Positions 44,226 to 64,000 of a DNA stretch of 64,000 nucleotides are shown piece after piece. Source of the stretch: Sulfuritalea hydrogenivorans sk43H. GTDB lineage: Bacteria > Pseudomonadota > Gammaproteobacteria > Burkholderiales > Rhodocyclaceae. The position numbers and the translations under genes are program-made. Each line of letters begins with the position of its first letter. The stretch's first letter is position 1. The stretch lies in contig NZ_AP012547.1 in the NCBI RefSeq assembly GCF_000828635.1, positions 1,116,001-1,180,000 of the forward strand, written 5' to 3'. The notes below the pieces were generated by a model. It searched no databases and was not told the origin of the DNA. It saw only the letters and a list, made by a program, of their open reading frames with translations.

Positions 44226-45424
44226 TTAAGGAAATGCTGAACAAGCCACCGCAAAAAACGGCGACGGGCTGAAATAGAGACGAAACTGTGACGGAAATGC
44301 CATATTCATGGGGTGCTTGGCCCATTCGGGAGCGGATAAGGGGGAATTCTCCCTTGTCTTGCTCATGCCGGACGCACCTCTCCCGTCAATGGTCGTGCCC
44401 ACATGCTGACGTTGAGCATCGCCAGCATGGCAAAGGCGCGATTGGCGTTCTTTGCCAGACCGCGATAGCGAACCTTGGCAAAGCCCCACAGGCGCTTCAC
44501 GGTCAGGAACGGGTGCTCGACCTTGGATCGCACGCTGGACTTGCGGCGGTTGGTTTCCTTGTCGGCGTCCGTCAGCGGGTTGTTCCGATAGGCGCGCTTG
44601 TTGGTGAAGTCCTTCGCCTTCGGCGCGATGACCTTCAGCCGCTTACGCTGCTCTTGGCCCCGATAGGCGCTGTCGCCGTAGAAGCGAGTTTCCGCACCAT
44701 GCAGCAGGTTCGGCACTTGGTGGCTGTCATGAACGTTGGCGGCCGTGACGCTGGCGCTATGGACCAGTCCGCTCTGGCTGTCCGTGCCGATGTGCAGCTT
44801 CATGCCGAAGTGCCACTCGTTGCCCTTCTTGGTCTGGTGCATCTCCGGGTCGCGGCTCTTCTCCTGGTTCTTGGTCGAGGGCGGCGCGGCAATCAGGGTG
44901 GCATCGACAATCGTGCCGCCGGAGAGCTTCATGCCGTTGGCCAGCAGCAATTCGCCGATCTTGGCGAACATGGCGGCTCCCAGATCGTGACGTTCCAGAA
45001 GATGCCGAAAGTGCAGCAGGGTCGTGGCGTCTGGCACCCGTTCCCGGCCCAGGTCGATGCGGCAGAACTCACGAAACACGGGGACATCGTAGAGGGCGTC
45101 TTCACAGGCTTCGTCGGCCAGGTTGAACCAGTTGGCGACGCAGTACATCCGCAGCATGCGCTCCAGTCCCACCGGTGGCCGGCCATTCCCGGCCTTCGGG
45201 TAATGCGGTTCAATCACGGCGCAGAACTCGGCCCACGGCATCAGGCGATCCATCCGCGCCAGAAACTCCGCCTTGCGCGTCGCACGGTTGTGCTTCTCGA
45301 ATCCTCGTGTCGCCGCCAGCGTCATTTGTTTCATCGTTCTATCCCTTGTGATCAACACTCTTTGTCTGACCCAATGACGATGAGATCGTTCACAGTGTTT
45401 GTACCTTATTCAGTGTTTCCTTAA
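44226..45424 (-). mobile_element. IS5-family insertion sequence, complete, with TTAA target duplication
   Basis: Terminal inverted repeats GGAAATGCTGAACAAG (44230-44245) and, at the right, the complement of GGAAACACTGAATAAG (45405-45420), 12 of 16 identical. They are flanked by TTAA on both sides (44226-44229, 45421-45424), fitting the YTAR 4-bp target typical of IS5. The element proper is 1191 bp with one transposase gene. It lies between the thioesterase ATG and the dispersed element copy B. Confidence 0.9.
44363..45358 (-). CDS. IS5-family transposase
   Basis: A full-length DDE transposase (331 aa; an inner ATG at 45334 gives MKQMTLAATRGFEKHNRATR). It has the N-terminal DUF772-type domain with YPKAGNGRPPVGLERMLRMY, the first catalytic Asp in GGTIVDATLIAAPPSTKN, the second in FYGDSAYRGQEQRKRL and the Glu in RSKVEHPFLTVKRLWGFAKV. 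No frameshift or stop is seen, so the element may still be active. Confidence 0.94.
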   Translation of the reverse strand: MLITRDRTMKQMTLAATRGFEKHNRATRKAEFLARMDRLMPWAEFCAVIEPHYPKAGNGRPPVGLERMLRMYCVANWFNLADEACEDALYDVPVFREFCRIDLGRERVPDATTLLHFRHLLERHDLGAAMFAKIGELLLANGMKLSGGTIVDATLIAAPPSTKNQEKSRDPEMHQTKKGNEWHFGMKLHIGTDSQSGLVHSASVTAANVHDSHQVPNLLHGAETRFYGDSAYRGQEQRKRLKVIAPKAKDFTNKRAYRNNPLTDADKETNRRKSSVRSKVEHPFLTVKRLWGFAKVRYRGLAKNANRAFAMLAMLNVSMWARPLTGEVRPA

Positions 45425-45575
45425 CGTGAAACAGCTTGTTCGGGGCGACTGGCATTGGTCGAGCGAAGCGAGCAAATCGGTAGCCCCCCGTGAGGGGGGA
45501 CGGGGGGGCGGGCCACTAATTTGCTTTTCGCGTGTTTCATCTTCTGCGGATGGAGCTTGCTGGCATGAGCGTTAA
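45421..45575 (+). repeat. Dispersed GC-rich palindromic element, copy B
   Basis: ttaacgtgaaacagcttgtt, then gagcgaagcgagc, the hairpin tagccccccgtgagggggga, a G-run, ttttcgcgtgtttcatcttc and catgagcgtta. Same ordered blocks as copies A (opposite strand) and C. Its left edge shares TTAA with the IS5 target duplication; its right edge reaches the SDR gene stop. Confidence 0.75.
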
Positions 45576-49820: not shown

Positions 49821-49898
49821 GATCCGCAGATTACGCAGATTTGCGCAGATTACTCAGTGTCTTGGCTCATCTGCGTAAATCTGCGAAATCTGCGGATC
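49821..49898. repeat. Intercistronic inverted repeat, type 2, copy 2
   Basis: gatccgcagattacgcagat then ttgcgcagat (49821-49850) pairs with atctgcgtaaatctgcgaaa then tctgcggatc (49869-49898). The left flank agaagcatttgatcc equals the complement of the right flank of copy 3, so the element occurs in both orientations. Confidence 0.88.
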
Positions 49899-49916
49899 GA
49901 CCTTGGATTTTCGGAT

Positions 49917-50624
49917 TCATACTTCCAGCCATTCCTTGCGGATGGCTTCGTTGTTCTTGAGGTCGGCCGGCGTGCCTTCGAAGACGATGCGGCCATGGCC
50001 CATGAGGTAGAGCCGCTCCGAGATGTCGAGCGCGATGGCCAGCTTCTGTTCGATCAGCAGGATCGAGACGCCGCGCTTGCGAATCTCCTGGAGGAATTCT
50101 CCGACCAGTTCGACGATCTTCGGCGCGAGGCCCTCGGTCGGCTCGTCGATCATGATCAGGTCCGGGTCGCCCATCAGCGTACGACACAAGGTCAGCATCT
50201 GCTGTTCGCCACCGGAGAGCACGCCGCCCGGCGTGTTTTCGCGCTCCCTGAGGCGCGGGAAGAGGGCGTACATGTCGTCGATGTTCCAGCGCCCGACCGC
50301 CTTGGTGTCCTTGACGCCGAGCATCAGGTTCTGCTTGACGGTCAGGTCGGGAAAGATCGAGCGGTCTTCCGGCACCAGGCCGATGCCGAGGCGGGCGACT
50401 TCGTAGGCCTTCAGGCCGAGGATGTCGCGGTCCTTGAAGCTGATTCTGCCGCGCGCGACGACCTGGCCCATCACGGCCTTGGCCGTGGTCGAGCGGCCGA
50501 CGCCGTTCCTGCCGAGCAGGCAGACGATTTCTCCGGGATTGACGTGCAGGTTGACGCCATGGAGGACGTGACTCTTGCCGTAATAGGCGTGGAGGTCGGC
50601 AACTTCCAGCATGGGCTTGGTCAT
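49917..50624 (-). CDS. livF: Branched-chain amino acid-type ABC transporter ATPase LivF, Walker A Lys replaced by Arg
   Basis: ATPase subunit, 235 aa: HAYYGKSHVLHGVNLHVNPG, signature motif LSGGEQQMLTLCRTLMGDPD, Walker B LIMIDEPTEGLAP. The Walker A reads GRNGVGRST, with Arg where the catalytic Lys normally is (GxGKST). The rest is conserved, so the protein is probably made and folded; whether this site hydrolyses ATP is open. The ATG overlaps the livG stop (ATGA). Adjacent genes are livG, livM, livH and livK. Confidence 0.93.
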   Translation of the reverse strand: MTKPMLEVADLHAYYGKSHVLHGVNLHVNPGEIVCLLGRNGVGRSTTAKAVMGQVVARGRISFKDRDILGLKAYEVARLGIGLVPEDRSIFPDLTVKQNLMLGVKDTKAVGRWNIDDMYALFPRLRERENTPGGVLSGGEQQMLTLCRTLMGDPDLIMIDEPTEGLAPKIVELVGEFLQEIRKRGVSILLIEQKLAIALDISERLYLMGHGRIVFEGTPADLKNNEAIRKEWLEV

Positions 50625-51406: not shown

Positions 51407-51503
51407 ATCCGCAGATTACGCAGATTATCCAGAGAGACGAGCGAAGCGGCCGGCGCCAAGCAATGCCCCGATCCATCTGCGTAAATCTGCGAAATCTGCG
51501 GAT
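51407..51503. repeat. Intercistronic inverted repeat, type 2, copy 3
   Basis: atccgcagattacgcagatt (51407-51426) pairs with atctgcgtaaatctgcgaaa then tctgcggat (51475-51503), with a 48-nt loop. Right flank caaatgcttcttgcagg matches copy 4 almost exactly. Confidence 0.88.
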
Positions 51504-51521
51504 CAAATGCTTCTTGCAGGC

Positions 51522-52796
51522 TCACGATTTATCTCCATGCAGTGTCGCCAGTGTCGAATTCCACGCCGCGCGAGTCCGGCCGCCGATCCAGCGCGTCAGC
51601 GCGAGGCCAGCCGCCGTGACGCCCAGCGCCGCCAGCCACGGGACGGCTGTGTTGAGGTGGAGTTCCATCTTCATTACCTTCGTCGCCGTGTCGCCAGCGC
51701 CGACTCCCTCGCCGGCGAGCAGGGCATAGCTCATCTCGACCAGGCCGACCAGGCCGGCCAGCAGGATCAGGATGGGCACGGCGACGGCGAGGTAATGCGG
51801 CACCATGCGGCCGAACAGTCCCGCCATCCACAGGTTGCGCTGGATCGCGATGACGCTGGCGATGCCGCCCGGCGCCATCAGCACCATGAACAGGAAGAAC
51901 AGGCCGAAGTACAGCAGCCAGGCGTGCGTCATGCCGCCGACCACGATCTGCATCACGGTGATCAGGATGGCGCCGATGATCGGGCCGTAGAAAAAGCCGA
52001 TGCCGCCGACGAAGCTCATCAGCAGCACCACGCCCGAGGTATGCGCGTTGAGGGTTTCCGCGGTGACGATCTCATAGTTGAGTGCCGTCAGGCCGCCGGC
52101 GACACCGGCGAAGAAGCCGGACAGGATGAGCATCAGGTAGCGCACGCGCTGCGTGTCGTAGCCGACGAACTCGGCGCGTTCCGGATTGTCGCGCACCGCA
52201 TTGGCCATGCGGCCCAGCGGCGTCTGCGTCAGGGCGAACATGGCGACGGTGGCGAGGAAGGCCCAGGCCACGATCAACCCGTACATCTCGACCTGCGGTC
52301 CCCAGGTGAAGCCGAGGAAGCTCTGCTTGGCGATCACGCGATTGCCGGAGACGCCGCCTTCGCCGCCGAAGAAGCCGGGGAACATCAGTGCGCAGGCCGC
52401 GACCAGTTCGCCGATGCCGAGCGAGATCATGGCGAAGGTGGTGCCGGCCTTCTTGGTCGTGACGTAGCCGAGCACCACGCCGGCCAGCAGCCCGGCGAGG
52501 CCGCCAACCAGCGGCAGCAGGGCGACCAGCAGCGGACTGCCGTCCTTGCCGATGTAGTTCAGCGTGTGCATGGTGATGAAGGCGCCGATGCCGTAATAGA
52601 CCGCATGGCCGAAGGAAAGCAGGCCGGTCTGGCCCAGCAGCATGTTGTAGGAGAGCGCGAACACCACCATGACGCCCATCTGGCACAGCAGCGAGATCAT
52701 GAAGCCGCTCTTGAACGCCAGCGGCAGGGCGACAACGAGGGCGAGGCAACTGCCCCAGAGCAGCAGGCGGCCGCGCGGAAATATGGCGCTGTTCAT
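51522..52796 (-). CDS. livM: Branched-chain amino acid-type ABC transporter permease LivM
   Basis: Integral membrane permease, 424 aa, about 10 transmembrane helices (MVVFALSYNMLLGQTGLLSF, GHAVYYGIGAFITMHTL near the N terminus), with the permease loop GRMANAVRDNPERAEFVGYD. The C-terminal third (after about residue 330) is a non-standard extension with further helices and a sequence at 51682-51705 that resembles the short dispersed repeat (GVGAGDTAT region). It pairs with LivH. Confidence 0.92.
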   Translation of the reverse strand: MNSAIFPRGRLLLWGSCLALVVALPLAFKSGFMISLLCQMGVMVVFALSYNMLLGQTGLLSFGHAVYYGIGAFITMHTLNYIGKDGSPLLVALLPLVGGLAGLLAGVVLGYVTTKKAGTTFAMISLGIGELVAACALMFPGFFGGEGGVSGNRVIAKQSFLGFTWGPQVEMYGLIVAWAFLATVAMFALTQTPLGRMANAVRDNPERAEFVGYDTQRVRYLMLILSGFFAGVAGGLTALNYEIVTAETLNAHTSGVVLLMSFVGGIGFFYGPIIGAILITVMQIVVGGMTHAWLLYFGLFFLFMVLMAPGGIASVIAIQRNLWMAGLFGRMVPHYLAVAVPILILLAGLVGLVEMSYALLAGEGVGAGDTATKVMKMELHLNTAVPWLAALGVTAAGLALTRWIGGRTRAAWNSTLATLHGDKS

Positions 52797-52814: not shown

Positions 52815-52943
52815 ATCCGCAGATGACGCAGATTTCGCAGATTGAACAGCGAAGTGGCCCGTACCCACGGCTCATCCGGCAGGCGGTCCGACCCGACCAG
52901 GCAAGGCCCTGATTCATCTGCGTCAATCGGCGAAATCTGCGGA
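52815..52943. repeat. Intercistronic inverted repeat, type 2, copy 4
   Basis: atccgcagatgacgcagatt then tcgcagatt (52815-52843) pairs with atctgcgtcaatcggcgaaa then tctgcggac (52916-52943), with a 72-nt loop, between livM and livH. Right flank caaatgctttttgcagg. Confidence 0.85.
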
Positions 52944-52962
52944 CCAAATGCTTTTTGCAGGT

Positions 52963-53901
52963 TCATGATTCGCGCGCCCCCATCAGGCCGCGCGGGCGGA
53001 AGACCAGGATCGCCACCATCAGCATGTAGGGCAGCACCGGTGCCAACTGCGTAATGGTCAGCCGCGCCACTTGCGAACCTTCGGGCAGCGTGACGCCGAT
53101 CAGGGCGAAGACATCGGTGATGGATATCGTCAGCGCGATCGAGAAGGTCTGGATGCAACCGATCAGCAGCGAGGCGACGAAGGCGCCGCCCAGCGAGCCG
53201 AGGCCGCCGACGACGACGACGACGAAGACGATGCTGCCGACCGCCGCCGCCATGCCCGGTTCGGTGACGAAGGCATTGCCGCCGATGACGCCGGCCAGCC
53301 CCGCCAGCGCGGTGCCGCCGCCGAAGACCAGCATGAAGATGCGTGGCACGTTGTGGCCCAGCGCCTCGACCATGTCCGGCTTGGTCAGCGCGGCCTGGAT
53401 GATGAGTCCGATGCGGGTGCGCGTCAGCAGCGCATAGAGGGCCACCAGCATGCCGACCGAAACCAGCATCATGAAGCCCTTGTAAATCGGGAAATCGGTT
53501 GCGAACAGGGTGAACAGCGTGCCGTCGAGTTCCGCGGGAATCCGGTAGTCGACCGCCACCTTGCCCCAGATCAGGTGCACGATTTCCTCGACCAGGAAGG
53601 CCAGGCCGAAGGTGAACAAGAGTTCCGCGACGTGGCCGTACCTGTGCGCGCGGCGCAGGCCGTAGCGCTCCACGGCCGCGCCGACGGCGCCGACCAGCAG
53701 CGGGGCCACCAGCAGGCCGGGCCAGAAGCCGACCCAGGTGCTGATCTGGTAGGCGAAGTAGGCGCCGAGCATGTAGAAACTGGCGTGGGCGAAATTGAGG
53801 ATGCCCATCATGCTGAAAATCAGCGTCAGTCCGCTGGACAACATGAACAGCAGCAAGCCGTAGGTAATGCCGTTCAGCAGCGATATGGCGACGAATTCCA
53901 T
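52963..53901 (-). CDS. livH: Branched-chain amino acid-type ABC transporter permease LivH
   Basis: Integral membrane permease, 312 aa, about 8 helices: MEFVAISLLNGITYGLLLFM, ILNFAHASFYMLGAYFAY, FGLAFLVEEIVHLIWGK and the loop TRIGLIIQAALTKPDMVEAL with VPRIFMLVFGGGTALAGLAG. The sequence is typical of the LivH/HAAT family. It lies between livK and livM; a repeat-like stretch separates it from livK. Confidence 0.93.
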   Translation of the reverse strand: MEFVAISLLNGITYGLLLFMLSSGLTLIFSMMGILNFAHASFYMLGAYFAYQISTWVGFWPGLLVAPLLVGAVGAAVERYGLRRAHRYGHVAELLFTFGLAFLVEEIVHLIWGKVAVDYRIPAELDGTLFTLFATDFPIYKGFMMLVSVGMLVALYALLTRTRIGLIIQAALTKPDMVEALGHNVPRIFMLVFGGGTALAGLAGVIGGNAFVTEPGMAAAVGSIVFVVVVVGGLGSLGGAFVASLLIGCIQTFSIALTISITDVFALIGVTLPEGSQVARLTITQLAPVLPYMLMVAILVFRPRGLMGARES

Positions 53902-54141: not shown

Positions 54142-55380
54142 TCAGGGACGTTCCATGATGCAGGAGGTCGGCAACTGCGAGTCGCGCTGCGAGATCGTCG
54201 CCAGCGTCTTCCAGCCGTAGCCCGTGCCTTCCGAATCATGCTTGACCGTCTTGCCGTCCTTCTTGCTGAAGATCGAGATGTACAGCGGTTGCATGGCCTG
54301 GTGGTCGCTCTTGCGCATCCAGACTTCGCCGGTGTCGACCGGCATGCGCATGTCTTCCAGCGCCAGGGCCACGGCCTTGGGGTCGGTCGATTTGGCGGTG
54401 TTCATGGCCTGGGCCACCATCTGCACCATGTTGTTCACCCGCAGGTAGTAGAACCAGACGCCGGGATACTTCTTGTTGAAGTCCAGGGCGAACTTCTCGG
54501 TGTTCTTGGTCGGCACGTTCATGTGCCATTCGGTGAGCTGGATGACCTGGTTTTCGCCGGCCGCGCCCATCGCCTGCGGCGTGCCGAGGCCGCCCGCGTA
54601 GTAGGTGAAGAAGCGTGCCTTGAGGCCGGCATCCTTGGCCGCCTTGATCAGCAGCGAGAGGTCGTTGCCCCAGTTGCCGGTCATCACGGTGTCGGCGCCC
54701 GAGGCCTTGATCTTGGCGATGTAGGGCGCGAAGTCCTTGACGCGGCCGATCGGATGCAGATCCTCGCCGACAATCTTGATGTCCTTGCGCTTCTTGGCCA
54801 GCATCTCCTTGGTATACTTGGCCACCTGATGGCCGTGGGCATAGTCCTGGCCGATGATGAAGACCTTCTTGATCTTCTTGTCCTTCTCCATGAAGTTGCT
54901 GATCGCCTCCATCTTCATTTCGGTGTTGGCGTCGAAGCGGAAATGCCAGAAGCTGCACTTCTCGTTGGTCAGTGTCGGATCGACGGCCGCGTAGTTGAAG
55001 AACAGTACCGTCTTGTCCGGGTTGCGCGCGTTCCACTTGTTCACCGCGTCGATCAGCGAATGCGCGGCGCCCGAGCCGTTGCCCAGCGTGACGAAGCGGA
55101 AGCCCTGGTCGATCGCGGCCTTCAGCTGGATCTGGGTTTCCTGCGGGCTGCCCTTGTTGTCGAAGCCGGTGAACTCAAGCTTCTGGCCCATGATGCCGCC
55201 CTTCTGGTTCACCAGGATTTCGGCGGCTTCCTTGAAGCCCTTGAGACCGGCTTCGCCGACGTTGGCGAACGGACCCGACAGCGGGTCGATGTAGGCGATC
55301 TTGACCTGGGCGAAGGCGTTGCTGCCGATCAGCAGCGTGCTCGCGGCAAGCGCGAGGCGTTTTGCAAGCGTGTATTTCAT
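54142..55380 (-). CDS. livK: Periplasmic substrate-binding protein of the Liv-type transporter
   Basis: A 412-aa solute-binding protein (peripla_BP_6 type). Signal peptide MKYTLAKRLALAASTLLIGS then NAFA, followed by the mature start QVKIAYIDPLSGPFANVGEA. VTLGNGSGAAHSLIDAVNKW and FIIGQDYAHGHQVAKYTKEM are typical. In proteobacteria this family also binds short-chain or aromatic acids, and the position next to an acyl-CoA catabolic operon makes an acid substrate plausible; amino acids cannot be excluded. It has its own promoter and an aggag site. Confidence 0.92.
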   Translation of the reverse strand: MKYTLAKRLALAASTLLIGSNAFAQVKIAYIDPLSGPFANVGEAGLKGFKEAAEILVNQKGGIMGQKLEFTGFDNKGSPQETQIQLKAAIDQGFRFVTLGNGSGAAHSLIDAVNKWNARNPDKTVLFFNYAAVDPTLTNEKCSFWHFRFDANTEMKMEAISNFMEKDKKIKKVFIIGQDYAHGHQVAKYTKEMLAKKRKDIKIVGEDLHPIGRVKDFAPYIAKIKASGADTVMTGNWGNDLSLLIKAAKDAGLKARFFTYYAGGLGTPQAMGAAGENQVIQLTEWHMNVPTKNTEKFALDFNKKYPGVWFYYLRVNNMVQMVAQAMNTAKSTDPKAVALALEDMRMPVDTGEVWMRKSDHQAMQPLYISIFSKKDGKTVKHDSEGTGYGWKTLATISQRDSQLPTSCIMERP

Positions 55381-55671: not shown

Positions 55672-58176
55672 CTATTTCGCCTTGGTTTTCCGGGATGGCG
55701 GGGCCTTGGCTTTGGCTGCGGGAACCGTTTTGGCCACCGGAGGCGGTTCCGGTTCGGGCGCCTTGGCCGCGACATACTGGCCGCCATCCGGATTGCCCAG
55801 CAACTGGAACGGCGCCCAGAAGAACGGTTGCGGACGCTTGCCCTTGAGCTCCAGCTGGGCCTGGCGCAGGGCGTCGAGTTTGCCGGTCCGGCTCAGGTTG
55901 CTGTAGAAGGCCCGCATCAGGTCCGAGGTGGCCTGATCGTCGACTTTCCACAGGCTGGCGACAATGGTGGCGGCCCCGGCATAGAGGAAGCCGCGCGTCA
56001 GGCCGACCACGTCGTCGCCGTTGGCGATCTTGCCCAGCCCCGTTTCGCAGGCCGACAGGGTGACCAGGTCGGTATCGAAGCGCATCGAGTACAGTTTGCT
56101 GACAGTGAGCAGGCCGTCGTCCTGATCGTCTTTCGACAGGTAGAGCGCCGAGGCGAGCGGATTGTCGGCCTTGAATTCGCCGTGGGTGGCGAAATGCAGG
56201 TAGCGGAAGCCCTGGCCGTACTTGCGCAACGCCGCCGTGTTGGCCTCCTTGCGCAGGAAGGCGCGCGACTGGGGCACCATCTTCGCGATGGCGACCGCCT
56301 CCTGCTGGGCGAACTCCAGATCGAGGCGCGGATCGCCCAGGTCCGGATTGCCCAGAGTCAAGGCGCCGGCCGGGTAGTTCGCCTCGCCGCTGCGCAGGTA
56401 TTTCATCACGCTGGCGCTGGGCAGCAGGCGCACGGTGAATTTGTCGAGCAGGTATTCGTTGCCGCTGTGGAGTGCCGCCAGCGGCACGTAATGCAGCACC
56501 CCGTGCGCGACGAAGGTGATGCGCGGGCGGTCGAGCTGGCCCAGGATCGGCGCCACCAGTTTCCCGTACAGGGATTGCGCCAGCGGCAGCTGCGTCTTGC
56601 CCTGCGGGTCTTCCAGGGCGGCGCGCCAGGTCCGCACCTCCGCTTCCAGATCTCCGGCGTCCACCCGCATGGCACTCAGGCTCTCGCGATTGAGGACAAA
56701 GGCATAGAGCGATTTCTCGTCATAGTAGTACTCGACCAGGGTTTCATCCGGCCGCAGCCTGGCCTGGATCTCCGCGATCGGGGTGGCGCTGACCGAAACC
56801 AGCGTCGCCAGTTCCGGCGCCTGTTCGCGCAGCACTTCCGCCGGCGCGGCAACACTGAGGGTCCGGCTGCGGCTTTCCACTCCCTGGGCGAGGCTGGCGA
56901 TTTCGGACTGCTCCGCTTGCGCGAGCAAGTCGCGGATTTTCTCCGCGTCGCCGGTGACCACCGCGAAATCCTTCTTCGAGGCGAGCATGTCGACCAGGGC
57001 GCGCGACTTCGAGCGCTCCAGGTAGTCGAAGGCCTCGGCGAACTGGCCGGTCGCATGCAGGCCGCCGATCAGGCGGCCGTAGACGGCCTGCTTGTCGCCG
57101 ACAAAGCCGATCTTGTTGGCCTCGGTGTTGATCGACGAGCGCTGGTGCTCGATGATCTCCACCGCCTCGCGCCAGAGCTTCACGGCTTGCGCCATGTCGC
57201 CCTCGCCGGCGGCGATGCGGCCGCGGTCATACAGCAGCAGCCAGTAGATCTCGCCGTTGCCCTGGGTGCGCTTGTCCTTCAGCAGCTTGTCGAAACCTTC
57301 CCTGGCCTCCTTGACCTGGCCGATTTCGAACTGCGTCTTGTAGAGCAGGAATTCCTTGGGCAGCTCGACATAGGAAAACATGCTGTCGCCCACGTCCATG
57401 CCGGCAATCGCGTCCGCCAGGCCGACCGCGAGCGAGCCGATCAGCGAGCTGGTATCCTCTTTCAGCGCTGCGTTGGCCTTGACGAAATCACCGACCGAAA
57501 CATAGATGCGCGCCACGCCGTGCCATTTCTCGGCCGCGAGCAGCGAGTAGGGATAGGACGTGCCGACGGCGGCCAGCTCCTCCGCAACCTTGACCGCTGC
57601 CTCGCGGTTGCCGCCGAAGCCTTCGGCCAGGCCATTGGCGGTCAGCGTCATGATGCGCATGCTGCGCTCCACGCTCCATCCCGTCGGGATCGACTTGGTC
57701 GCGGCCTGGGCCGCGGCCACGGCCTTGGGATAGTCGCGCAGCTCGTTCCAGGCTTCCGCCTTCATCAGGTGCACAAAGGGCACCACGGTGCCGGCAAGCA
57801 GCAGTTCGCTGCTGGTGGAGCCCCCGGCGATGCCGGCGCCCATGCGTGCGAGGCCGGTAAGGAACGGACTGTCCTTTGCCATTTCCTCCAGGTCGTTCAT
57901 CGCCGTGTCGCCCTTGGCGATGTTTGCTTCCATCCTGGCCAGGCAGGGGAACAGCTTGTTGTAACGCTTGAGCTTGCTGAAGGCGGCGCACTGGAACATC
58001 AGCTTGGCGTTCTTCGGATCCGGATCGTCGCCGATTTCCTTTTCCATGAGCTTTTCCAGCTCGGCATAGCGCCCGGCGGTGAACAGCTTCTGGCGTTCGG
58101 GGATCAGGGCCGCGTCGGCCGTTGCGGGCAGCAGCGGCGCGAGCAGCAGCAGGGCCAGGAGCAATGAGCGCAGCAT
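55672..58176 (-). CDS. Exported TPR-like protein with C-terminal CHAT protease domain
   Basis: An 834-aa protein. Signal peptide MLRSLLLALLLLAPLLPATA then DAA; helical repeat region (about 25-480) with TPR-like pairs such as AEAWNELRDYPKAVAAAQAA; CHAT domain (about 510-785) with the catalytic His in LHFATHGEFKADNPLASALY (about 665) and Cys in LVTLSACETGLGKIANGDDV (about 710), ending FYSNL...PFFWAPFQLLGNPDG. The last 30 residues are Pro/Ala/Lys-rich. CHAT domains are caspase-like proteases; here the protein should act outside the cytoplasm. Next to a lipid-kinase gene on the other strand. Confidence 0.88.
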   Translation of the reverse strand: MLRSLLLALLLLAPLLPATADAALIPERQKLFTAGRYAELEKLMEKEIGDDPDPKNAKLMFQCAAFSKLKRYNKLFPCLARMEANIAKGDTAMNDLEEMAKDSPFLTGLARMGAGIAGGSTSSELLLAGTVVPFVHLMKAEAWNELRDYPKAVAAAQAATKSIPTGWSVERSMRIMTLTANGLAEGFGGNREAAVKVAEELAAVGTSYPYSLLAAEKWHGVARIYVSVGDFVKANAALKEDTSSLIGSLAVGLADAIAGMDVGDSMFSYVELPKEFLLYKTQFEIGQVKEAREGFDKLLKDKRTQGNGEIYWLLLYDRGRIAAGEGDMAQAVKLWREAVEIIEHQRSSINTEANKIGFVGDKQAVYGRLIGGLHATGQFAEAFDYLERSKSRALVDMLASKKDFAVVTGDAEKIRDLLAQAEQSEIASLAQGVESRSRTLSVAAPAEVLREQAPELATLVSVSATPIAEIQARLRPDETLVEYYYDEKSLYAFVLNRESLSAMRVDAGDLEAEVRTWRAALEDPQGKTQLPLAQSLYGKLVAPILGQLDRPRITFVAHGVLHYVPLAALHSGNEYLLDKFTVRLLPSASVMKYLRSGEANYPAGALTLGNPDLGDPRLDLEFAQQEAVAIAKMVPQSRAFLRKEANTAALRKYGQGFRYLHFATHGEFKADNPLASALYLSKDDQDDGLLTVSKLYSMRFDTDLVTLSACETGLGKIANGDDVVGLTRGFLYAGAATIVASLWKVDDQATSDLMRAFYSNLSRTGKLDALRQAQLELKGKRPQPFFWAPFQLLGNPDGGQYVAAKAPEPEPPPVAKTVPAAKAKAPPSRKTKAK

Positions 58177-58204
58177 GGTTTTCTCCTCGCATCGTTAATA
58201 TGAA

Positions 58205-58350
58205 AAACCTTGTTCGAAGTCTCCGGTACAGAACGCGCGCAGCGCGCCGACTGGTAACCCCCCGTGAGGGGGGGAAGGGGGGCGGGTGACCACTTCGCCT
58301 TTCGCGTGTTTCATCTTCGGCGGGCGGCACTCGGTGCCATGAGCGTTCGG
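58205..58350 (+). repeat. Dispersed GC-rich palindromic element, copy C
   Basis: accttgttcgaagtctccgg, then ggtaaccccccgtgaggggg, a G-run, gcctttcgcgtgtttcatct then tcggcgg and ccatgagcgttc. It matches copy B in its hairpin, cgcgtgtttcatctt and catgagcgtt blocks; the first block (ttaacgtgaaac) is altered. Between the divergent CHAT and lipid-kinase genes. Confidence 0.7.
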
Positions 58351-58429
58351 TTGGCAACCATCATAGACCCTCCCTCGTTCCCGTGTCGCGGCGCTGGACG
58401 CCGCCCTTTCGACGCAGCAAAATCCGCCC

Positions 58430-59347
58430 ATGAACCCCGTCGATGCTTCGCGCTGGCTGCTGCTGCTGAACCCGGTGTCCGGGCGCGGCCAGGGGCTGCG
58501 CGACCGCGATCGCATCCTGGCGGCGGCGTGCGCGGCCGGGCTGGCGTGTGACGTTGCCGTATCGGCGCACGCGGGGCATTGCATCCAGCTCGTGAGCGAG
58601 GGCATTGCCGCCGGCTACCGGCGCTTTCTGGTCGGTGGCGGCGACGGCAGCCTTTCCGAGGCCGTCAACGGCGTCATGGGACAGAACGAAGTGCCGGCGG
58701 CGGACATCACCCTCGCGTTGCTGCCCGTCGGCACCGGCAACGACTGGGCACGCGGCCAGGGCATCAGCCGCGCCTACGCCACGGCCCTGGCCGTGGCGGC
58801 GGCGGGCCATGTTCGCCGCTTCGATGTGGGCGTCATCGATTTCGAAGGCGGCGGGCGGCGCTGGTTCATCAATGTCGCCGGCATCGGCTTCGACGCCGGG
58901 GTGGTGGAAAACATGCCCTCGCGCTCGCTGGGGCGGCTGGCCTACCTGATCGGCCTGTTGCGCGAGCTGGCGGCCTACCGGCCGCTGCCATTGCGCCTTC
59001 GCGCCGACGCGGAGCCGGTCGCGGCATCGGCCATGCTGCTGTTCGCTTGCCTCGGCCGCTATTGCGGCGGCGGCATGCTGGTGGCGCCCGAGGCGCGCGC
59101 CGACGACGGCGCGCTCGATCTGGTGCTGATCCGCCACATGCCCTTGCATCGGGTGCTGCGGGCCTTGCCGCGCCTGTTCGACGGCCGCATCGCCAGTCAT
59201 CCGGAAGTCAGCGCCTGGCGCTGCCGGGCCCTGGAAATCGAGGCCCCGGCGGGCGCGCCGATGGAAGCCGACGGCGAACTGGTGGGTTACGCTCCGGCGC
59301 GCATCAGCGTTCTGCCGCGCGCCGTCGGCATCGTCGTGCCGGCCTGA
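58430..59347 (+). CDS. Diacylglycerol/lipid kinase family protein (YegS/DagK type)
   Basis: A 305-aa lipid kinase: LLLLNPVSGRGQGLRDRDRI, the nucleotide motif FLVGGGDGSLSEAVNGVMGQ and LALLPVGTGNDWARGQGI, then FINVAGIGFDAGVVENM, and the C-terminal MEADGELVGYAPARISVLP. These are the conserved blocks of DAGK_cat proteins such as YegS. The lipid substrate is not evident. It is divergent from one CHAT gene and convergent with another. Confidence 0.92.
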   Translation: MNPVDASRWLLLLNPVSGRGQGLRDRDRILAAACAAGLACDVAVSAHAGHCIQLVSEGIAAGYRRFLVGGGDGSLSEAVNGVMGQNEVPAADITLALLPVGTGNDWARGQGISRAYATALAVAAAGHVRRFDVGVIDFEGGGRRWFINVAGIGFDAGVVENMPSRSLGRLAYLIGLLRELAAYRPLPLRLRADAEPVAASAMLLFACLGRYCGGGMLVAPEARADDGALDLVLIRHMPLHRVLRALPRLFDGRIASHPEVSAWRCRALEIEAPAGAPMEADGELVGYAPARISVLPRAVGIVVPA

Positions 59348-59531
59348 AGGCTTGCGAAAATGGATGTCGGAATGGCGGTTGATGGACGAGCCGCCTGCCG
59401 TGGCGTGGCCGCAATTGATGTTTGCCGCGTCAGACTATTGGAAACAGCGATGTCTCCGATGTGCCCATTGCTGCCATATACCACTCGCATAAGCAATGGC
59501 CGTTTCTCGCTTCTATGCAGCCATCCAAAGT

Positions 59532-62500
59532 CTACTTTCCCATTCCATCCCCAACCAGCGAAAAAGGTGCCCAAAAGGCGGGATGCGCATAACTCAGACC
59601 AGCCTTGGGGTCGCCTGTCTTCATCACGTCCAGCATTGCTTGACGCAAAGCCTCAGCCCTTGGCAGGGATGGGTTCTCAACCTCACGTCGGAATAGTGCG
59701 GTGGTCAATTGGCGAGCCGACGTGGTTTCCACCGCCCAACTTGACACCAACAGACTACGGGCGCCAGCGAAGAAGAAGGCTCGGCCGAGACCGGAAACTG
59801 CCTCAGAAGCTTTGCCATCTGGACTGGCCGTATTGCACGCCGACAGCACCACCCAGTCGGCATCCAGCTTCAGTCCGAGCACTTCGTCCATGGTAAAGAA
59901 TCCATCTGCATCGGCCTCCCCGGTCAGTGCGGGATTCGAGAGCACAAGTGCCGGCTGATCGAGGCCTGCGACTTCGCCGGACGCAATCCCGTGAGTTGCA
60001 AAGGCCACCACGCGCCGATCATCGAGTTTGGTTTGCTTGACTTGGCTCTCTGTGGCTCGGCGTCCCACATAGACGTCACGACCAGGATCAGCCTTGAGTG
60101 CCGCCGCAATTTCCATCAGTTCGTCGCTGGTATCGGGCAGGGACGGCATTAGCCTGAAGGCATTTGCCAGAAGACGACTCGCGTCCACTCGGGGTTTGGA
60201 CTCAATGGTGGAACTACTCCCAGCCTGCAAAGAGAGTTGTTCGTCAACAGCATTGCCTTCCCTGCCTATCGAGAGATTCCGTGCGCGGCCACGCTTGCTG
60301 GCAACACCCTCCGTTGCGACGAACAGCGGATCACCAAAGCCGATGAAGGGCGTCCGTCCGGCACGCGCCAGTGGGGAACGTCTCAGCGCCAGGAATGCGG
60401 TCGCCGAGGGCAGCTGGGCCAGCGCAACTTTCCGAATCAGCCATGGTGTGTTGCGAAAAATTCCCTGATCGTCATCACCTGTGCGAGCCGTCTCGGTTGG
60501 CAGCAGTGAAAAAGGAATCTGACCTAACGATCCATGAGGAATAACGGAAAGCACCTTGGCCTGCCGCCAAAGTTCAGCATCAGGGGCCAGGAATGCTTGA
60601 TAGAGTTTGCTTGCACGAGTCAAATCGAATGAAGAGGGCCGAACGTCGTCATCATCAAACATCAAACCGGCGCGCAATTTCGCCACATCGGCGTCGACTT
60701 CGGCGCGGCCAATGGGCACAACCCGAAAGCCCGTCTTGCCCTGGTCTCCCACCGTCCAAACGTAGGATTGGGCTTTGCCTAGATAAATGGAAACCAGAGC
60801 TTCGCCTGGAGCGAGGGCTTTCCTGACCTCAGCCAGCGTGGCAGGCTTGGGGGCAATCAGATCGCCGAATTCCGGGAAGCGCCGATGGATGTCGTCTTGC
60901 AGAGCAAGGTGTTCCTTTCGCAAGCGCTCAACCTCTGTCCGCATGTCGGCGATGATCTTGTTCAGCCGCTCCGCCTCGGGTGCAGTAACCAGCTTTGCCA
61001 GTATCTTGTCGAGCGCGACGGCCTGGTTCTGGGTGTCCTGATCGCGCCGCACCAAACCAGCCAACTCTACGTTCGGAAGCTGCGCCCGTGTTGCACTCGC
61101 AGCGATGGCGGCTTGTACACTTGAGCCTCTCGCCAGATCGGCGGTGCGAAAGGATTCTGCAATCGCATCAAGACCCGGCGGTACCTTGCCTTCTGTTTGA
61201 AGTCTTGCCAGCAGATCGACATAGGCTTCCAGAATCTCAGTGCGCCAAAAAACTCGCGTAACACCGGCACCCTCAGCCGCACTGTTATCCGAGTCCGACC
61301 GGACCATTTCCGGCAACGCTTGCTGAAAAGCTGCCAGCGCCCCCGGCAAATCTCCGAGGCTCGTCAATGTCATGCCCAGTACCCCCCGCTGACGGGCGAC
61401 GTGGTAGGAGTTTGGAACAGACCGCTGATGCTGGATAGCGATGAGTCGTTCGGCCATGTCCTTAGCAGCTTGCGACGACCCAGACCGATGAAGCGCCAAC
61501 GCCCAGGCAATAGAATCCGTACGAAGTTGCGTCGCCGGATCGGATTGAAGGTCTTCGGCCCTCTCCTTGAAAACATTCATCGCCGCATGCCAGCGCTCCT
61601 GTTCAACCAGTAGCTCGCCTAGGGATAGTCGCGCCTTTGGGGTACCACCTGATTTCAGCGCGACCGTTAAGGCGTGGCGGTAGAGCTTTTCCGCACCGAC
61701 TAAATTGCCGGACTGATGCCGGATATATGCAAGGAGCCCAAGTACCTGGGCAGTTTGAATCGAACTGGGACCCGCGTACTTGATGGCATCTTCCACCGTT
61801 GCTTGGGCAAAAAACTCTGCTTCTCCAAACTTGCCTCGCGCCACCAGAACTGCTGCCAAGTCGCCCCTAGCGTATGCAAGATTCTCCGCAGCAACTCTTA
61901 GCCACTTAGCGGAACGCAACTGCAGATTGAAATCTTCCTGAGCATTGTCAAGAGCAAGTCTTCTAAGGCGTTCCGCTTCCCGCATATTGCCTTGGGCGGC
62001 CATGAAGTGAGCATGCCGGGCCTGATTCAAATAGATCTGGTTGTACTTTAGCCATCCCCAGTCATTGCGGTTCGCCATTTGTCTTAGTGTTTCGTCGGCG
62101 TCCTTCAGCGACTGTTCCGCACTAGCGAAATCTCCAAGGCTCAGGTGCACCCGTGCGAGCATGAGCTTCGCTAGATGGTGCTCAGACCAGTTTGACGGGT
62201 ACTGAGCGGCAAGACTTTGCCAGTGCACATTTTCGGAAAGCAGATCGCCCTTTCTGCGCAATGAAGTGCCCAAGTCATTTTGCAGACGCCAGAGATCGCC
62301 CCATCCACTAACCGCGATACGGCTTGGCATGTTGTTCCGCAAAGCGATTTGCAGATCATTCACCGATTGATCATAGTTACCCAATGTGTAATGGGCCATG
62401 CCCCGTTTGTGGTGGAAGACCGCAATCTCATGCTTGTCATCGGTTTGTGGTGGCGCCATTGCCGCTTGCTCTTGGGCTTTACGGGTGGCAGTGCTATTTT

Positions 62501-62606
62501 GAAGGCGGTCGATCAGACCGGAGGCTGCATCTTCCTGCGCCCATGCCGGGGCAGCCAAGCCGCACAACAAAATCGAGCAGCGGATGAATCGTTGGTAAAT
62601 CGTCAT
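59532..62606 (-). CDS. Exported TPR protein with C-terminal CHAT protease domain (large)
   Basis: A 1024-aa protein. Signal peptide MTIYQRFIRCSILLCGLAAP then AWAQ; TPR region (about 50-450) with AVFHHKRGMAHYTLGNYDQS and LGLLAYIRHQSGNLVGAEKL; coiled coil (about 540-590); CHAT domain (about 640-1020) with His in RRVVAFATHGIASGEVAGLD (about 872) and Cys in WVVLSACNTASPDGKASEAV (about 924). The end SYAHPAFWAPFSLVGDG is typical. It is a diverged relative of the protein starting at 62976. Base composition is poorer in GC than in the upstream genes. A small ORF overlaps its start by 4 nt. Confidence 0.9.
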   Translation of the reverse strand: MTIYQRFIRCSILLCGLAAPAWAQEDAASGLIDRLQNSTATRKAQEQAAMAPPQTDDKHEIAVFHHKRGMAHYTLGNYDQSVNDLQIALRNNMPSRIAVSGWGDLWRLQNDLGTSLRRKGDLLSENVHWQSLAAQYPSNWSEHHLAKLMLARVHLSLGDFASAEQSLKDADETLRQMANRNDWGWLKYNQIYLNQARHAHFMAAQGNMREAERLRRLALDNAQEDFNLQLRSAKWLRVAAENLAYARGDLAAVLVARGKFGEAEFFAQATVEDAIKYAGPSSIQTAQVLGLLAYIRHQSGNLVGAEKLYRHALTVALKSGGTPKARLSLGELLVEQERWHAAMNVFKERAEDLQSDPATQLRTDSIAWALALHRSGSSQAAKDMAERLIAIQHQRSVPNSYHVARQRGVLGMTLTSLGDLPGALAAFQQALPEMVRSDSDNSAAEGAGVTRVFWRTEILEAYVDLLARLQTEGKVPPGLDAIAESFRTADLARGSSVQAAIAASATRAQLPNVELAGLVRRDQDTQNQAVALDKILAKLVTAPEAERLNKIIADMRTEVERLRKEHLALQDDIHRRFPEFGDLIAPKPATLAEVRKALAPGEALVSIYLGKAQSYVWTVGDQGKTGFRVVPIGRAEVDADVAKLRAGLMFDDDDVRPSSFDLTRASKLYQAFLAPDAELWRQAKVLSVIPHGSLGQIPFSLLPTETARTGDDDQGIFRNTPWLIRKVALAQLPSATAFLALRRSPLARAGRTPFIGFGDPLFVATEGVASKRGRARNLSIGREGNAVDEQLSLQAGSSSTIESKPRVDASRLLANAFRLMPSLPDTSDELMEIAAALKADPGRDVYVGRRATESQVKQTKLDDRRVVAFATHGIASGEVAGLDQPALVLSNPALTGEADADGFFTMDEVLGLKLDADWVVLSACNTASPDGKASEAVSGLGRAFFFAGARSLLVSSWAVETTSARQLTTALFRREVENPSLPRAEALRQAMLDVMKTGDPKAGLSYAHPAFWAPFSLVGDGMGK

Positions 62607-62761
62607 GTAGCTCGCACCCTTCGCTTAGTGCCAATCGCCTGCCAGATTGAAAGGGGCCCAATTAGAACGAACGGCGCGGTTGAAAGGTTGCGCGAACTAT
62701 CTTCGGCAAAGGCACCTGAACAACCGAGTACCGTAGTGATTGGCAAGACTTTCTTGATCAT
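62603..62761 (-). CDS. Small exported or membrane ORF coupled to the large CHAT gene
   Basis: A 52-aa open frame (MIKKVLPITTVLGCSGAFAE, DSSRNLSTAPFVLIGPLSIW then QAIGTKRRVRAT). Residues 1-19 look like a signal peptide (cleavage near AFA|ED); residues 28-41 are hydrophobic and followed by a basic tail (KRRVR). Its TGA overlaps the CHAT ATG (ATGA), the usual layout of translationally coupled genes. A weak ribosome binding site (ggaca) lies before the ATG. The frame is open further upstream to 62890. It may be a real membrane peptide or chance. Confidence 0.4.
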   Translation of the reverse strand: MIKKVLPITTVLGCSGAFAEDSSRNLSTAPFVLIGPLSIWQAIGTKRRVRAT

Positions 62762-62975
62762 TGTGTTCTGTCCAAAAATTGAGGTCGACGCTGTTCTCAG
62801 CCCCCAAAACAGCTTGCAGGTCCAAGTGCGCATGAAGGGAAAGCTTAGGATGTTATTGGCGCTATGCCAATTGCACATATTATTGAACATGTTATAGGAA
62901 TCGCAATCGACAAGCCATTGAGCGACGGCTATAGTGGCGAAAAGTCACAAACGGCATAAATTTCAGGGGGATCTG
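62607..62975. other. Divergent intergenic region between CHAT-related genes
   Basis: 369 bp between the large CHAT gene (minus) and the TPR gene at 62976 (plus), AT-rich compared with the surroundings. Apart from the small ORF at 62603-62761 it shows no gene. The stretch ttgcacatattattgaacat (62870-62889) and gttatagg could belong to a promoter for either direction, but no clear -35/-10 pair is found. Confidence 0.5.
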
Positions 62976-64000
62976 ATGCGTTTTCATCTACTTATTGCGG
63001 CTGTACCGCTCCTACTCGCGTTCAGGGGGCAGGCACAAACGCCGCCAGCTCCGCCCCGCAACGTGGCCGATATTCTTGCGGTACTGGATGAGTACAAGCC
63101 AGATCCAGCGGCAGTGGAGAAACTGCGCGCCCAAGCATCTGCACAACCGCCCTCTGCGACGAGTGGTCAAGAACTTGCCGTCTTCTTTCATCGGCGCGGC
63201 CACGCCAACAAGATTTTGGGAAATGCGAAGCAACAAATCGCTGATTTTGGCCAAGCGCTCGAAACTGTGCGTCCTAACGCCATGCCAGAAAATGAAGGCA
63301 TTGGCGACCGCAATCGAATTCTCATGGATTTGGCTGAGGCTGAGTTCGCTGCAGGAAACTGGATTCGTTCAATTTCGGTTGCTAAGGAATTGGCAATTGA
63401 CACCAGAGGCAGTGGTTTCGTTGGCTTGTACTTCATCGCCCAGAATCTTGCAGCGCTCTCCGATCAGGAGCGGACTCGAATTGCTTTGCGTGATCTTGAC
63501 CAGAGGTACTCGCAACTTGGTTCAAATTTGGTCTACCAAGCGATGCACGAGCGCGTCCACGGTATGGGTTTGGATCTGCAAGGGAATCTTGGTGAGGCCG
63601 AGCGACGTCATCGTAAATCGATGGAGTTAAACGAACTGGCCTACGCTCAGTCAAAAAAATCTATTGTATCTAGTCGCTATGCGCGAGCTCAGAGCACTGC
63701 ACTGATGTCGTGGTCTGTGTCAGAAAGGTTGCTTGCTCGCAATTTGAAAAACCAAGGTCGTGGAGCGGAGGCAGAGTATCACTCGCGAAATACTCTGTTG
63801 CGCATGCTGCAGGGCTACGGGCGCTACTCAAGCTACACGGGTTCATTTATCTATGAACTCGGTCTTGTCGTTATGGAATCTGGACGGTTCCGGGACGCTG
63901 AGTTGCTGGCTCGATCCGCCGTCGAGAGTTTCGAAAAGTCTGGCTCAGTCCCGTATGCGTTCCATTTGGCCCGCGCTAGAGGCGTTCTTGGCGAAGCGCT
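62976..64000 (+). CDS. Exported TPR protein, likely N-terminal part of a CHAT-domain protein (cut by window edge)
   Basis: Starts at the ATG at 62976 (ggggg at 62966-62970 upstream): MRFHLLIAAVPLLLAFRGQA is a signal peptide. About 341 codons are in the window and the frame is still open at the edge. AVFFHRRGHANKILGNAKQQ aligns with AVFHHKRGMAHYTLGNYDQS of the divergent CHAT protein, so the two are paralogues. TPR-like repeats follow (for example LVVMESGRFRDAELLARSAV). A CHAT domain should follow downstream by analogy; it is not in the window. Confidence 0.8.
   Translation, partial: MRFHLLIAAVPLLLAFRGQAQTPPAPPRNVADILAVLDEYKPDPAAVEKLRAQASAQPPSATSGQELAVFFHRRGHANKILGNAKQQIADFGQALETVRPNAMPENEGIGDRNRILMDLAEAEFAAGNWIRSISVAKELAIDTRGSGFVGLYFIAQNLAALSDQERTRIALRDLDQRYSQLGSNLVYQAMHERVHGMGLDLQGNLGEAERRHRKSMELNELAYAQSKKSIVSSRYARAQSTALMSWSVSERLLARNLKNQGRGAEAEYHSRNTLLRMLQGYGRYSSYTGSFIYELGLVVMESGRFRDAELLARSAVESFEKSGSVPYAFHLARARGVLGEA

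Follow-up and report, generated by a model that had tools for sequence, protein, structure and literature searches.

Three genes in a 64,000-nucleotide window of Sulfuritalea hydrogenivorans sk43H (contig NZ_AP012547.1, positions 1,116,001 to 1,180,000), here termed A1, B1 and B2, encode proteins that combine an N-terminal signal peptide, TPR-like repeats and a C-terminal CHAT domain. Caspase-like proteins of this kind are more commonly described as intracellular enzymes of cell death or defense. With about even confidence, A1, B1 and B2 are interpreted as periplasmic limited proteases of the Csx29 type, which are orphans at this locus and have clients encoded beside them in related bacteria. 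This interpretation draws on computed domains and export signals, a conserved His/Cys pair, cysteine depletion, the modeled fold of B1, the history of the locus, and the linkage to candidate partners in relatives. The lipid kinase gene located among the three appears to be a bystander and an ordinary member of the YegS/DAGK family. The features of the locus, numbered from the first base of the window, are listed below.

55672-58176, minus strand: A1, predicted exported TPR-CHAT protein of 834 amino acids, His665/Cys710, clade A (open reading frame, Pfam and tree)
58430-59347, plus strand: YegS/DAGK-type lipid kinase (PF00781, PF19279), a later neighbor and not a conserved partner
59532-62606, minus strand: B1, predicted exported TPR-CHAT protein of 1024 amino acids, His872/Cys924, clade B, atypical codon use
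62607-62975, no strand: intergenic stretch separating the divergent B1 and B2
62976-64000, plus strand: first part of B2 inside the window, the third predicted exported TPR-CHAT gene, His886 and Cys938
58187-64000, continuing to about 66310 in the extended contig: insert (kinase, B1, B2) relative to the same-genus genome G125, from a blastn comparison between loci of the genus and the extended contig

A preceding inspection of the letters and open reading frames (hereafter, the sequence-only reading) had described the 834- and 1024-residue frames, the opposite start at 62976, and the order of signal peptide, TPR-like repeats and CHAT domain with His/Cys at 665/710 and 872/924. All of these hold, although the repeats of A1 are marginal (TPR_2, 27.7 bits against a cut-off of 27) next to those of B1 (TPR_12, 59.3 bits). 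Searches with Pfam hidden Markov models place CHAT (PF12770) far above its gathering cut-off of 24 in all three genes, with 235.8 bits for A1 (expectation value, E, 9e-70) and 163.4 bits for B1 (E 1.1e-47). Extension of the contig to the right completes the third gene, of which only an N terminus had been visible. B2 stops 2.1 kilobases (kb) beyond the window end, at C1:1182104 (equivalent of 66104), and comprises 1042 amino acids counted from 62976. Its CHAT domain lies just beyond the window at C1:1181013-1182092 (equivalent of 65013-66092; E 2e-51, 175.3 bits).

The putative catalytic pair falls at positions 665/710 in A1, 872/924 in B1 and 886/938 in B2, within the motifs FATHG and LSACET (A1) or FATHG and LSACNT (B1 and B2). 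In the named loci of relatives, 85 B-type CHAT genes were called, and 84 of these have the pair at the sites equivalent to B1 His872 and Cys924; the sole exception is a broken gene in locus L118. Neither residue varies in the 57 rows of alignment A4 (B1 plus 56 B proteins) or among 11 CHAT domains drawn from four clades, and both simple motifs occur in 59 of 62 family rows. The source genome contains seven CHAT places above the Pfam cut-off, none with an internal stop: three belong to type A, with a short CHAT domain and LSACET, and four to type B, whose CHAT domain is long and carries LSACNT. Two matches below the cut-off (250035 and 3324770) score far better as C14 caspases and were discarded. 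The conservation of the pair suggests, as judged from sequence, that A1, B1 and B2 may be active proteases.

A structure model of B1, built from 57 sequences, reached a predicted local distance difference test score of 87.6 and a predicted template modeling score of 0.88, and the modeled fold is of caspase/separase type. Comparison with Csx29 (7y9x) gave Z 28.7 over 570 residues at a root-mean-square deviation (rmsd) of 9.5, with separase (5fby) Z 24.9 over 320 residues at rmsd 3.4, and with the gingipain RgpB Z 17.6. Separase shares with B1 the arrangement of helical repeats and a caspase-like protease domain, but it is eukaryotic and only 10-14% identical in the rows listed. Csx29, the TPR-CHAT protein of type III-E CRISPR (Craspase), resembles B1 in its TPR superhelix and CHAT domain, with His and Cys at matching positions; a CHAT profile places the motifs opposite Csx29 residues 615 and 658. 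In excerpts of PMC10028731, the Csx29 H615A/C658A double mutant loses cleavage of Csx30, a partner encoded in the Csx29 locus that receives a single cut, within a small flexible loop.

The likeness to Csx29 is structural and does not amount to membership in that family. The NCBIfam Csx29 model NF041237 (cut-off 300 bits) gives 55.8 bits for A1 and no match for B1 or B2. Csx29 acts with Cas7-11, whereas the window proteins carry signal peptides, and a PADLOC scan limited to 10 neighboring proteins returned no cas or Cas7-11 match among them.

Export signals and cysteine use together suggest that A1, B1 and B2 look built to be exported to the periplasm or envelope. All three pass a strict signal-peptide rule (home-made rather than SignalP, with starts within 45 residues) that fires on 161 of 1275 neighboring control proteins. 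The rule is passed by 44 of 76 named B proteins and by 36 of 57 CHAT proteins in the family sample; with starts allowed up to 110 residues, it selects 196 of the 1275 controls and 46 of the 76 B proteins. An earlier and laxer rule, which fired on 259 of 636 controls, was replaced by the strict one. B2 contains one cysteine, Cys938. The cysteines of B1 are residues 10 and 15, both in the signal peptide, and 924, such that the mature protein would keep 924 alone; those of A1 are 63, 78 and 710. In the last 880 residues, a single cysteine is present in 47 of 76 B proteins and three or fewer in 75 of 76, against about 8.8 expected from 432 neighboring proteins of at least 300 amino acids, 13% of which are equally cysteine-poor. 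This depletion, with the catalytic thiol retained, is read as an adaptation to an oxidizing compartment. Two very large CHAT proteins of relatives, which lack a clear export signal and belong to another type, have 17 and 20 cysteines.

In the proposed mechanism, signal peptides would send A1, B1 and B2 to the periplasm or onto the envelope, where the TPR superhelix would most likely capture an exported client. The bound client would align the His-Cys active site, a role played in Csx29 by the bound target, and a limited single cut would follow in a flexible loop of the client. In relatives, the likely clients would be encoded next door, as a TpsA-type protein with a ShlB-type transporter, a predicted outer-membrane barrel, or a small immunoglobulin (Ig)-like protein with a TRGI-x-RGP motif. 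The window copies, without a client neighbor, would act in trans.

The linkage to envelope genes differs among clades. The 10 rows of clade C have TpsA-type and ShlB/FhaC-type genes close to CHAT; among the matches listed, 8 of the 10 have ShlB no more than 12 kb away, and the remaining two are at contig ends. Across the family sample, 9 of the 150 ShlB places among the matches listed have CHAT within 12 kb, against about 1.4 expected. Pfam confirmation covers a single locus for TpsA and a single one for ShlB (the latter in L028, outside clade C), and the others were assigned by family search or clustering. In all 6 rows of a subclade of A, the gene immediately upstream encodes an exported protein of 420 amino acids ending in GYWF; a contig end truncates one of the six. 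This protein has no Pfam match and is predicted to be an outer-membrane barrel. Its type occurs near CHAT at 6 of 14 places, representing five genera (0.19 expected). A further A gene, in L016, adjoins TamB and a TamA-like gene. All neighbor expectations assume 4-Mb genomes and independence, and close relatives inflate the counts.

In clade B, whose loci span Rhodocyclaceae, Polynucleobacter and other Burkholderiales, 79 named loci were fetched and a CHAT gene was called in 78. Of these 78, 32 encode a small exported protein, and its gene starts -89 to +132 bases from the CHAT stop in 30 of the 32. A zinc-ribbon membrane protein is likewise found in 32 of the 78 loci, two genes away in 29. In the family sample, the small gene lies near CHAT at 7 of 11 places, from four genera (0.15 expected). 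Scanned examples of both families (L182:11021-11934 and L181:11449-12240) gave no Pfam or NCBIfam match above cut-off. The small protein is predicted to consist of an N-terminal segment followed by an Ig-like sandwich (CopC- and PKD-like matches, E near 1e-3), with the TRGI-x-RGP motif in the loop between the two. Arg42, Gly43, Arg46, Gly47 and Pro48 (numbering of L182:11021) are invariant in 22 aligned small proteins (alignment A5), and the more distant protein of L047 departs from the motif. Since the CHAT-related proteases of clan CD often cut after Arg or Lys, this loop is the first candidate cleavage site, with cleavage at Arg. For orthocaspases, cleavage after Arg or Lys is stated in an excerpt of PMC6426788.

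The sequence-only reading had noted no recognizable partner. This stands for the window genes and fails for the class, whose relatives have recurrent envelope neighbors.

Several observations weigh against a protease role with neighboring clients. The window genes have no such neighbor, and the source genome has neither the small-protein nor the barrel family. In 41 of the 78 B loci, no small-protein gene was called although the contig continues (one of these, L138, holds one by family search), and in a further 5 the contig ends after CHAT. The signal rule is failed by 32 of 76 B proteins, B3 of the source genome included, with some failures due only to cut contigs or gene starts. Three of the 62 family rows (L028, L033 and L035) lack a simple His or Cys motif, and L028 is among the nine ShlB neighbors. 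Finally, the closest end-to-end structural match of B1 is DdvA, an anti-sigma factor, which makes a sensor without proteolysis possible.

Such a sensor is the main rival, although we regard it as unlikely. In this alternative, A1, B1 and B2 would be extracytoplasmic sensors or scaffolds whose CHAT domain binds without cutting, in signaling or envelope assembly, as the large domain of DdvA may do. The DdvA structures 8rw5 and 8rot are Foldseek matches one and three of the B1 model and align over 629-630 residues at rmsd 5.1-5.3; for 8rw5, Z is 20.7 over 629 residues at rmsd 5.3, nearly end to end. The DdvA chain was not recovered by sequence at E up to 10. DdvA has been studied in Myxococcus xanthus, and the external signal that inactivates it is reported as unknown in an excerpt of PMC4374960. 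A paper on its structure was not found in the open-access literature, and the statements on DdvA made here rest on PDB titles and that excerpt. Together with the three motif-deficient family rows, this resemblance argues for a sensor. However, DdvA is a transmembrane anti-sigma factor according to the PDB titles, whereas the window proteins start with a signal peptide, which in B1 passes straight into helical repeats, and have no anti-sigma Pfam match. Furthermore, a pure scaffold needs neither His nor Cys, yet the pair is kept in nearly all B genes, and that Cys persists while others were lost.

The history of the locus bears on the remaining alternatives. Genus-wide, the locus lies between a binding-protein gene at 54142 and a GTPase gene of YlqF type (L010:4281-5180; name assigned by eye, with Pfam match MMR_HSR1). 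Of 20 same-genus genomes sampled, 14 have both ends on a single contig, separated by 0.36 to 4.4 kb, whereas the interval in the source genome (55375-66280, extended) measures 10.9 kb. The other six lack a close copy of the binding-protein gene, which makes the locus unreadable, and some genomes are incomplete. In G125 (85% identity) and G126 (77%), the locus holds an A1 ortholog and nothing else of the cluster, and in G125 A1 lies about 110 bases from the GTPase gene. G069 retains a C-terminal A1 remnant of 20 residues, and the loci of G001, G127 and G122 (0.36 to 0.52 kb) have no gene of their own. The kinase has no match at the locus in any of the 14 readable genomes, and B1 and B2 are absent from it there, with matches only through A1 orthologs. 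The presence of A1 without the other three genes indicates that A1 is the older resident and that the others arrived later. Kinase, B1 and B2 entered on a segment of about 8.1 kb, from 58187 to the equivalent of 66310. As an observation on the region, the interval between the binding-protein and GTPase genes is variable within the genus, with different cargo genes in several of the 14 relatives.

B1 (GC content 0.570) and B2 (0.608) rank below all 36 reference genes in codon use, unlike the kinase (0.722). Genes were called by a codon-based script of our own making, which did not call B1; the reference genes therefore lean towards the typical, and the low ranks of B1 and B2 are partly built in. 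In the tree of 62 rows, B1 groups with L062 (from G008, a Propionivibrio metagenome-assembled genome, on the contig of L117), and B2 groups with L050 (G069), a same-genus gene that adjoins an mraZ-like gene (named by eye). The tree was made without L070, L073 and L075, which are other CHAT types, and L033, L039 and L069 are in it with no clade counted. This grouping rejects a recent duplicate pair and puts B1 and B2 in distinct lineages. Locus L118 has a broken B1 ortholog (78% identical), flanked on either side by a lipid A acyltransferase gene. CHAT is present in 56 of 121 family genomes and in 14 of 21 same-genus genomes. Tandem CHAT genes occur in five named loci (L140, L160, L179, L182 and L185), and in 12 B loci, mostly of Polynucleobacter, the CHAT operon is flanked by the same housekeeping genes. 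Neither the matches listed for the two samples (family and genus) nor the 79 named loci include another head-to-head CHAT pair.

Secreted conflict effectors offer a rather improbable explanation, in which the proteins would serve competition or phage defense at the own envelope or that of neighbors and be gained and lost as single cargo genes. The patchy occurrence of CHAT in both samples, the atypical codon use of B1 and B2, the location of their orthologs at other places, and the two-partner secretion link in one clade are consistent with it. On the other hand, PADLOC yields nothing for B1 and B2 and at best 14.9 bits (Csx1) for A1, and among the 10 neighboring genes it detects only cross-matches of two ABC ATPases; among the four remaining CHAT proteins of the source genome, B3 matches BovA at 29.2 bits. 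PHROGs give no match for A1, B1 or B2. A known anti-phage defense identity was rejected for the three proteins on these results. The constant housekeeping neighbors of the 12 B loci are also unlike those of a mobile weapon.

Non-functional drift, in which the window copies would be laterally acquired, clientless and heading for loss, is distinctly improbable. The A1 remnant in G069, the broken B1 ortholog in L118 and the lack of partner genes at the window locus fit this scenario, but all three reading frames stay open through their 834-1042 codons and retain the catalytic pair, and the seven CHAT places of the source genome show no internal stop.

The proposal of the sequence-only reading, that A1, the kinase, B1 and B2 belong to a single system for proteolysis or signaling in the envelope, is highly improbable, for it has the physical clustering in the source genome in its favor, and against it the same-genus loci where A1 stands without the other three (G125 and G126), the absence of the kinase, B1 and B2 from all 14 readable loci, the difference in GC content between the kinase and both B genes, the non-sister placement of B1 and B2, and a kinase found beside CHAT nowhere else in the sample. 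In the genomes examined, the gene group of the window recurs in none, the outcome that the sequence-only reading had named as speaking against a coherent system. The label given to the kinase proved correct, with TIGR00147 at 164.9 bits (cut-off 118.65), PF00781 at 80.9 and PF19279 at 125.6 defining a YegS-type DAGK. Of the 42 DAGK places in the 121 family genomes, a single one has CHAT within 12 kb (0.33 expected), namely the window itself, and YegS/DAGK kinases at the other 41 places show no CHAT link. A tblastn search at E 1e-10 found no kinase match in loci L016 to L195. A partnership between the kinase and the CHAT genes was rejected on the count of 1 in 42.

By every test made, the proteins qualify as CHAT members, yet they appear to be exported and have neighbors unlike those of the CHAT systems found in the open-access literature. 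HetF of Anabaena, the founder of the CHAT family, also unites CHAT and TPR in one protein and is located at the cell periphery (PMC8406250, excerpt). It differs in having CHAT within residues 1-555 and one predicted transmembrane segment, whereas the window proteins present an export signal, TPRs and then CHAT. C14 caspase homologs of prokaryotes that probably bear signal peptides have already been published (PMC3501461, excerpt), and a Bacteroides fragilis paper, in the excerpt available, terms a CHAT protein apparently transmembrane. A search of open-access literature on CHAT and the outer membrane revealed no exported CHAT system by title or abstract start, which is not a claim of absence from print.

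A broader form of the protease interpretation can be offered tentatively. Proteobacteria may possess a widespread extracytoplasmic counterpart of Craspase, composed of periplasmic TPR-CHAT endopeptidases with clade-specific exported clients, in which a surface event would be converted into one envelope cut; the window genes would be mobile members. Within this scheme, the Ig-like client would be cut at TRGI-x-RGP and wired to the zinc-ribbon membrane protein. CHAT proteases are usually discussed as effectors of death, defense or differentiation, and a large exported class, if true, would add envelope proteolytic signaling to these roles. The small TRGI-x-RGP protein provides a handle on whether exported CHAT proteins are active and what they cut.

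Minor features of the locus include an in-frame GTG at 62934, ahead of the B2 start, and three sigma-70-like matches, by consensus only, between 62400 and 63100, where shuffled sequences average 0.5. A conserved peptide upstream of B1 (a 95-residue frame at 62603-62890 with a signal-like stretch) was considered and rejected, given its poor alignment with the region upstream of the L062 ortholog. A 156-base repeat (74% identity) joins 58192-58347, at the left edge of the insert and before A1, with 45418-45573. Families of short repeats of about 50-75 bases lie mostly between housekeeping genes (49850-49923, 51456-51529 and 52897-52970; also 40189/47538 and 40278/47632).

The source genome encodes three C14 caspase proteins (L013:11170-13227, L014:9693-12818 and L015:8603-10348), which look exported by eye and of which two have WD40 repeats; the first lies two genes from the CHAT protein B4, with a DUF2145 gene between. 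In relatives, CHAT proteins of 1800-2000 amino acids (L073:6239-11695 and L075:8462-14266) combine DUF7379, a lipase-like domain, CHAT and TPR-S with no clear export signal, and open frames of similar size recur in the family list. CHAT is fused to an FGE-sulfatase domain in L070:8216-10606, and L185:4324-14114 holds three tandem B-type CHAT genes of 1104, 1061 and 1054 amino acids. Among the matches listed, CHASE2-cyclase genes lie two places from exported CHAT genes in L031:13489-15282 and L058:13849-15696.

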